NCBI RefSeq assembly: GCF_009696485.1
Contig: NZ_VULY01000018.1
Location: 1,728,001 to 1,792,000, forward strand
DNA length: 64,000 bases
Direction: 5' to 3'
Source of the DNA: Suipraeoptans intestinalis
Lineage (GTDB): Bacteria; Bacillota; Clostridia; Lachnospirales; Lachnospiraceae
Shown in pieces: positions 37,512 to 37,695 of the stretch. The notes under the pieces were generated by a model that saw only the letters and a program-made list of their open reading frames with translations, searched no databases and was not told the DNA's origin. Positions within the stretch are counted from its first letter, which is position 1; each line of letters begins with the position of its first letter. The position numbers and the translations under genes are program-made.

Positions 37512-37540
37512 TTGACAGGTAAAATGCCATCTGAAATAAT
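37512..37540 (+). promoter_or_regulatory. Promoter driving the (GACA)n transcript
   Basis: TTGACA (37512-37517), 17 bases, AATAAT (37535-37540). The predicted start falls at the first repeats of the GACA tract. Confidence 0.55.
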
Positions 37541-37543
37541 CGT

Positions 37544-37596
37544 GACAGACAGACAGACAGACAGACAGACAGACAGACAGACAGACAGACAGACAG
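37544..37596 (+). repeat. (GACA)13 tetranucleotide microsatellite
   Basis: 53 bases of perfect GACA repeats. Tetranucleotide tracts of this length are rare in bacteria and prone to slippage. Not within a gene; flanked by a promoter and a terminator. Confidence 0.95.
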
Positions 37597-37695
37597 GTAA
37601 ATAAATACTCTGTTATATTTTGTAAGTATCATAGAGGCCTAGAGAGAAGCGATAGCAGCACATCCGGGAGGGGTGTGCCGTTGTCGCTTGTTTTT
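37545..37695 (+). ncRNA. Putative small RNA carrying the GACA repeat (hypothetical)
   Basis: A promoter at 37512-37540 and an intrinsic terminator at 37648-37695 bound a unit of about 150 bases with no believable reading frame. Its 5' half would be (GACA)13. The existence of the transcript is inferred from these signals only. Confidence 0.35.
37648..37695 (+). terminator. Intrinsic terminator of the GACA unit
   Basis: AGCGATAGCAGCACA pairs with TGTGCCGTTGTCGCT (two G-U, one mismatch), followed by TGTTTTT. Confidence 0.8.

Follow-up and report, generated by a model that had tools for sequence, protein, structure and literature searches.

A GACA repeat in a probable phase-variable leader before a WYL-regulator operon of Suipraeoptans intestinalis, and a promoter that seems embedded beside such repeats in Clostridia

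Why should a perfect GACA repeat lie between a predicted promoter and a terminator, directly ahead of an operon headed by a WYL-domain regulator? We asked this of a 64,000-nucleotide stretch of the Suipraeoptans intestinalis genome (henceforth the window), which belongs to a genus with one genome only among those compared. The original prediction described a repeat with no gene between promoter and terminator, in which a change of length would alter an RNA and not a protein, and proposed either a small RNA with a repeated GACA motif or a spacer tuning the WYL operon.

The features discussed are collected in Table 1. Tandem Repeats Finder returned the tract with a period of 4, 13.2 copies and 100% matches, confirming a perfect repeat of 53 bases. 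The position of the −10 box of the embedded promoter (P1) places the predicted transcription start inside the first repeat unit, as originally described, and the terminator behind the tract is strong: the fold of positions 37546-37700 has z = −5.65, with 0 of 200 shuffles as stable, and its strongest hairpin reaches −27.8 kcal/mol. A simple terminator scan did not list it, Rfam models gave no gathering-level match at 37500-37700, and the promoter scan reported no promoter of at least 9/12 matches between the terminator and the WYL gene. Upstream, a YitT-family membrane gene ends at 37417. What did not survive is the claim that no gene lies in between, as a leader reading frame of 26 codons is open from its ATG into and through the tract. 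A change in repeat number would thus shift a reading frame, contrary to the view that only an RNA is affected. Read from the sequence, P1 overlaps the start of this reading frame and fires into the tract.

Table 1. Features around the GACA tract of the window (positions counted from the first base of the window).
Feature	Position	Strand	Details
P0, candidate promoter of the leader mRNA	37463..37491	+	AAGACA-17-TACAAT, TG before -10, 9/12 consensus matches (weak)
GAGG, putative ribosome-binding site for the leader	37508..37511	+	12 nt before the ATG, long spacing; poor
P1, embedded promoter into the tract	37512..37540	+	TTGACA-17-AATAAT, TG before -10, 11/12 consensus matches
Leader ORF	37524..37604	+	MPSEIIV(TDRQ)n..GK; ATG start; TAA stop 37602-37604 at 13 repeats
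(GACA)13.25 tract	37544..37596	+	53 bases
Long open frame past the tract, across the terminator	37597..37815	+	72 codons; reached from the ATG if repeat number is 0 modulo 3
Intrinsic terminator	37648..37695	+	stem about 37648-37689, T-run 37691-37695
Palindrome upstream of the WYL gene	37876..37889	.	GACAAGTATTTGTC (GACAA-GTAT-TTGTC); possible operator, from sequence
WYL-domain regulator, first gene behind the predicted switch	37959..38933	+	Pfam PF13280 6.7e-12; PADLOC WYL models
Rest of the operon	38999..42953	+	550-aa, 126-aa and 244-aa proteins; SpoVK/CbbX/EccA-type AAA ATPase

Within the operon, the 550-aa protein partially matches PADLOC PDC-M40B, a candidate defence model, and the AAA ATPase has weak IetA matches; the operon (37959-42953) may encode a system for defence, or one akin to secretion, that a phase-variable leader controls. 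A second perfect inverted repeat, ATCATA-GT-TATGAT at 37891-37910, adjoins the GACAA palindrome, and both are possible autoregulatory operators. Elsewhere the window holds FMN and TPP riboswitches (46717-46842 and 18864-18967, respectively) and tandem 60-base coding repeats at 61871-62260, presumably of the cell-wall or choline-binding type.

The arrangement combines traits of several known systems. At tetranucleotide contingency loci the repeat lies inside a protein gene, for instance GACA in Haemophilus influenzae genes, or in Mod methyltransferases. As at such loci, the window tract is a perfect tetranucleotide run long enough to slip, lies within an ORF, and would shift the frame upon slippage, GACA being read as repeated TDRQ in every frame with no stop; the difference is that the window ORF is a leader, and that the proposed switch would act on transcription of the next operon. 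In Moraxella catarrhalis uspA2, AGAT repeats in the 5' leader tune expression by length, and this system likewise has a tetranucleotide repeat between promoter and gene; to our knowledge, neither a leader ORF nor a terminator is involved there. As in trp-type attenuation, the position of a ribosome on a leader ORF would decide whether a terminator forms, except that the input here would be a heritable repeat number instead of amino-acid supply.

The closest counterpart is the pil1/pil3 switch of Streptococcus gallolyticus. In the passages of Danne et al. 2014 (PMC3894217) used here, repeat number sets the length of a leader peptide and hence terminator read-through, as shown genetically. Changes in the number of GCAGA repeats move the leader stop: a stop at least 28 nt before the terminator goes with low pilus expression and a nearer or later one with high expression, and the high state is lost when chloramphenicol is added or the ATG removed (PMC3894217). 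The same passages report a single active promoter, which precedes the leader (−35 TTGTGT, −10 AATAAT), and describe no second promoter between ATG and tract, where P1 lies in the window. As far as these passages go, the two systems share a tract in a short leader ORF, repeat-dependent stops, an intrinsic terminator before the operon and regulated genes that often encode surface proteins; they differ in repeat unit (GACA, not GCAGA), in host range (many genera of Clostridia, not one streptococcus) and, in the window, in the WYL-regulator operon downstream. We therefore read the window, by analogy, as a new variant of this kind of switch, and applied the 28-nt OFF/ON rule of these authors, as given in those passages (PMC3894217), to the Clostridia leaders.

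In the window, the three frames meet their stops 1, 5 and 216 nt after the tract, and the terminator stem is at +51; by the 28-nt rule this predicts two OFF frames and one ON frame. At 13 repeats the leader stop lies 43 nt before the stem, so the present state is predicted to be OFF, and 12 or 15 units would be ON. The tract, the ORF, its stops, the terminator and the frames are all present in the DNA, and from them we infer how the switch would operate. An mRNA would start upstream of the ATG, at P0 or by read-through, and the number of GACA units, if the tract slips in the source strain, would set the reading frame of the translated leader. In two of three frames the ribosome would stop as soon as it has passed the tract, at a distance of more than 28 nt from the hairpin, which would form and end transcription (OFF). 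In the third it would translate through the hairpin and prevent its folding, and RNA polymerase would enter the WYL operon (ON). We thus consider it likely that the window holds a phase-variable, translation-dependent transcription attenuator before the WYL operon. Several observations speak against it: P1 alone would make an RNA without the ATG, P0 is weak and the putative ribosome-binding site poor, and some of the related leaders described below lack an in-frame start, a terminator or one of the two states.

This 2.6 Mb genome has a single further locus with at least four GACA units (C37:1072715-1072774). It has the same order as the window (TTGACA-17-AACAAT, tract, terminator, large protein gene), and since this sole other locus shares the layout, we take the layout to be more than chance. 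The protein behind it has a signal-peptide-like start, as expected of a surface-protein gene. By the 28-nt rule this second locus is ON in all three frames, which counts against the attenuator. A further contig (C14) is a 6.8-kb inverted repeat that duplicates the C37 locus with small indels, and carries 14.75 tract units against 15.75 in C37. We did not use this difference as proof of slippage because the contig, an inverted repeat with many small indels, is probably an assembly or read artefact.

Loci of this kind recur across Clostridia. The pattern TTGACA-N{17,40}-(GACA)4 matched 19 of 200 genomes of the family and its reversed version 0 of 200, and TTGACA-N{23,28}-(GACA)5 yielded at least 118 stretches in named genomes, nearly all from Firmicutes among the matches listed; a search with the element behind the tract as its pattern proved too restrictive, matching 4 of 150 genomes. 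Of 128 distinct loci parsed, 86 were classed by the open frames behind the tract into two groups of 43 each; the remaining 42 were left out, as they were masked or had a contig end within 150 nt behind the tract. Flank duplicates and loci with the tract starting within 45-70 nt of the locus end were also left out. The 43 loci of one group, together with five of the second added by inspection (the window among them), make up the 48 leader loci. The other parsed loci were hsdS genes or genes with the tract in the N-terminus, some of which we take to be acyltransferase-like from recognised sequence patterns.

By all signs these leaders appear to be translated, judging from counts that come mostly from TTGACA-selected loci and include homologous, hence not independent, loci. 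Among 73 related non-hsdS loci an ATG follows TTGACA by 1-6 nt in 46, compared with 3 of 37 background promoters taken from those loci, and none of these 46 has a stop between ATG and tract in the ATG frame, while the other two frames are interrupted in 38 and 21 of them. GG occurs within 6 nt before TTGACA in 56 of the 73 loci (6 of 37 background promoters), and GGG before the −35 box in 31 (0 of 37). Among the 48 leader loci, mostly selected in the same way, 44 have an in-frame start (42 ATG and 2 TTG) and four have none; a stop triplet stands directly behind the tract in 43 (31 TAA, 6 TAG and 6 TGA), against a background of 41-51%. That three kinds of stop are found behind the tract argues for translation rather than RNA shape.

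Many related loci also have a near-consensus promoter 20-65 nt ahead of P1. Over 88 loci, again mostly TTGACA-selected, these upstream promoters have a mean z of 1.69 and exceed the shuffled mean in only 76%; this separate promoter makes an mRNA carrying the ATG plausible. A downstream terminator hairpin was found in 43 of the 47 leaders tested and was absent from four, with 32 of the 47 reaching −18 kcal/mol or better compared with 2.3% of shuffles (same selection). By the 28-nt rule, 34 of 43 leaders have both OFF and ON frames and nine do not; at their present tract lengths 24 are ON, 15 are OFF and 4 lack an ATG. Among 42 downstream ORFs of at least 100 aa, likewise from mostly TTGACA-selected loci, 22 have a secreted- or membrane-protein-like start.

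That such tracts expand and shrink, as originally proposed, is borne out by near-identical locus pairs (at least 80% identity over 60 upstream and at least 75% over 60 downstream bases): repeat number differs in 16 of 16, which shows variability and not a rate, because loci matching in both flanks and repeat number had already been taken out, and C14 and C37, two copies of a single locus, form one of the pairs. The 1.1 Mb of locus sequence retrieved, mostly TTGACA-selected, contained no leader lacking a tract.

The leader switch explains the window but does not explain P1: RNAs started between ATG and tract lack the ATG, and the interior of hsdS, where the same promoter-tract pair occurs, needs no promoter. 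To look at P1 without selecting for it, we searched for (GACA)6 with 66 upstream bases, a pattern whose anchor letters skip part of the tracts. With C14 collapsed, this gave 23 distinct tracts from 200 family genomes, a further 17 from 392 class genomes and a further 3 from 398 phylum genomes, several of them homologues (G024, G117, G520). In these unselected Clostridia genomes, TTGACA precedes 37 of the 43 tracts by 23-29 nt and is followed 16-18 nt later by a −10-like box, also inside hsdS. Outside hsdS the count is 29 of 33, the rest having TTGCAT (two), TTGTAA or TTGAAA; in hsdS it is 8 of 10, with TTGACC in the other two.

In mostly TTGACA-selected loci, matches to TATAAT of at least 4/6 peak at a spacing of 17 (51% of leaders and 55% of hsdS loci, every other offset between 4 and 20 giving 0-19%), and of 179 GACA loci with TTGACA, 58% have a box with A as its second and T as its sixth base at spacing 17, compared with 2-16% at offsets 0-15. 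In hsdS, the codons of the LLTF motif beside the tract read TTGAC(A/C/T) in 29 of 29 copies, with a −10-like box in 20 and TTGACA in 25 (this last count mostly from the TTGACA-selected set; the unselected count is the 8 of 10 above). Other, tract-less copies of the motif in the same hsdS loci have TTGACA in 1 of 38 and a −10-like box in 1 of 38. GACA tracts thus seem to lie at the start site of an embedded promoter. In several of these hsdS loci (L040, L041, L208, L145 and others), the gene encodes a complete two-domain HsdS with the tract after its second LLTF motif, and one frame fuses a further recognition domain (GLIKLLQYVFGYA...); repeat number may toggle there between two- and three-domain specificity subunits.

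The geometry extends to phage contigs and to other repeat units. Unit searches of phage contigs were run with no upstream condition and scored for exact TTGACA 22-30 nt before the tract (expectation 0.28%). Among the matches listed, 52 of 102 GACA tracts have it (3 of 100 on the other strand), 50 lack it and 38 lack even a 5/6 match. TTGACA also precedes 12 of 37 AGAGC tracts, 8 of 46 GAAC tracts and 8 of 44 GCAA tracts (the last with a poor −10 box), against 0 of 40, 0 of 45 and 0 of 45, respectively, on the other strand; GAACA tracts showed no enrichment (1 of 33 vs 3 of 34). We accordingly rejected a role specific to the GACA sequence, as other units share the geometry. The phage tracts lie within hsdS and other genes, which from recognised motifs we take to be C5-methyltransferases, PAPS-reductase-like genes and one reverse transcriptase, and TTGACA is read in different codon frames. 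In the PAPS-reductase-like genes it is present in 14 of 20 tract copies and in 2 of 7 copies called tract-less, both of which have short repeats. Several phage contigs (L307, L260, L253, L265, L299 and others) carry C5-methyltransferase-like or PAPS-reductase-like genes with GACA, GAAC, AGAGC or GACC tracts at one fixed place, which we read as phase-variable phage enzymes, and contig L274 has a (GACA)24 tract inside a reverse-transcriptase-like gene (about 2167-3204).

Could the tract instead be the start of an untranslated RNA made from P1, either a terminated small RNA or a 5' leader tuning by length alone? P1 is near-consensus, starts in the first unit and is followed by a terminator, and as it points into the tract, a short GACA-repeat RNA is conceivable. 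Such an RNA is nevertheless not needed given the leader, and it would not explain why start codons are present, why the ATG frame is open (0 of 46, as opposed to 38 and 21) or why three kinds of stop occur; promoter-tract pairs are also found inside hsdS, where no such leader exists. We regard this reading as unlikely. For the spacer proposal, tuning of the operon is still what we hold most likely, and the reading by spacer length is rejected. A slightly less probable reading has P1 as the only real promoter, driving the WYL operon, with the leader ORF accidental. In its favour, P1 scores higher on average than the upstream candidates (mean 12.6 vs 10.2), but background promoters scarcely ever carry an ATG there and never GGG before the −35 box (3 of 37, and 0 of 37 vs 31 of 73).

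Two further readings appear very improbable. The repeat might offer an array of sites to the WYL protein, or to some other factor that binds GACA, as suggested by the GACAA palindrome upstream of the WYL gene and by the originally noted likeness of its half-site to the repeat. The comparison of loci did not support a WYL link: the window, assigned by family scans, is the sole leader locus of the 48 with a WYL gene seen directly downstream, none being seen at the other 47 from their N-terminal sequences, and the layout occurs with other units, AGAGC, GAAC and GCAA in phage contigs. The half-site likeness is best taken as chance. Nor do we give much weight to a neutral microsatellite without function, given that the geometry is constant in unrelated genera and genes and that hsdS motif copies with no tract lack TTGACA (1 of 38). 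We also considered, and rejected, the idea that a mini-hairpin serves mainly to pair the tract with a CTGTC further downstream; many loci have CTGCC, and the window version is weak.

The attenuator thus remains our preferred reading of the window, and P1 calls for a separate explanation. Across these loci geometry, strand and a purine-rich RNA are common, while gene, frame and repeat unit differ, which suggests that P1 acts on the tract; from the sequences we infer initiation-coupled slippage or R-loops as possible means. We tentatively propose that a hidden sigma-70 promoter firing into the repeat underlies the short tandem repeats found in gut Clostridia and in the phages of these bacteria. 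In the boldest reading it would be a mutator promoter, which might raise slippage through initiation at the tract (open complex, RNA-DNA hybrid). Its conjectured layout would be TTGACA, about 17 nt, a box with A2 and T6, 3-4 nt and then the tract, the RNA carrying its purine-rich strand. Such a promoter could conceivably serve the repeat and not expression, by setting the switching rate or letting repeats arise, though we hold this proposal with appreciably less confidence than the attenuator. The association of P1 with repeats would also fit some regulatory use that has escaped recognition, or a bias in the way repeats originate. We found no literature on a promoter embedded next to phase-variable repeats, judged by titles and the starts of abstracts.

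If the attenuator reading is right, a switch known from one streptococcus would be a common device by which gut Clostridia vary their surface proteins, and in the window it would vary a WYL-regulated operon with defence-like genes. An embedded promoter beside repeats, whatever the gene, frame or unit, would give a first sequence rule for where such repeats are located, and would imply, in a form open to testing, that repeat instability in bacteria is driven by the initiation of transcription.
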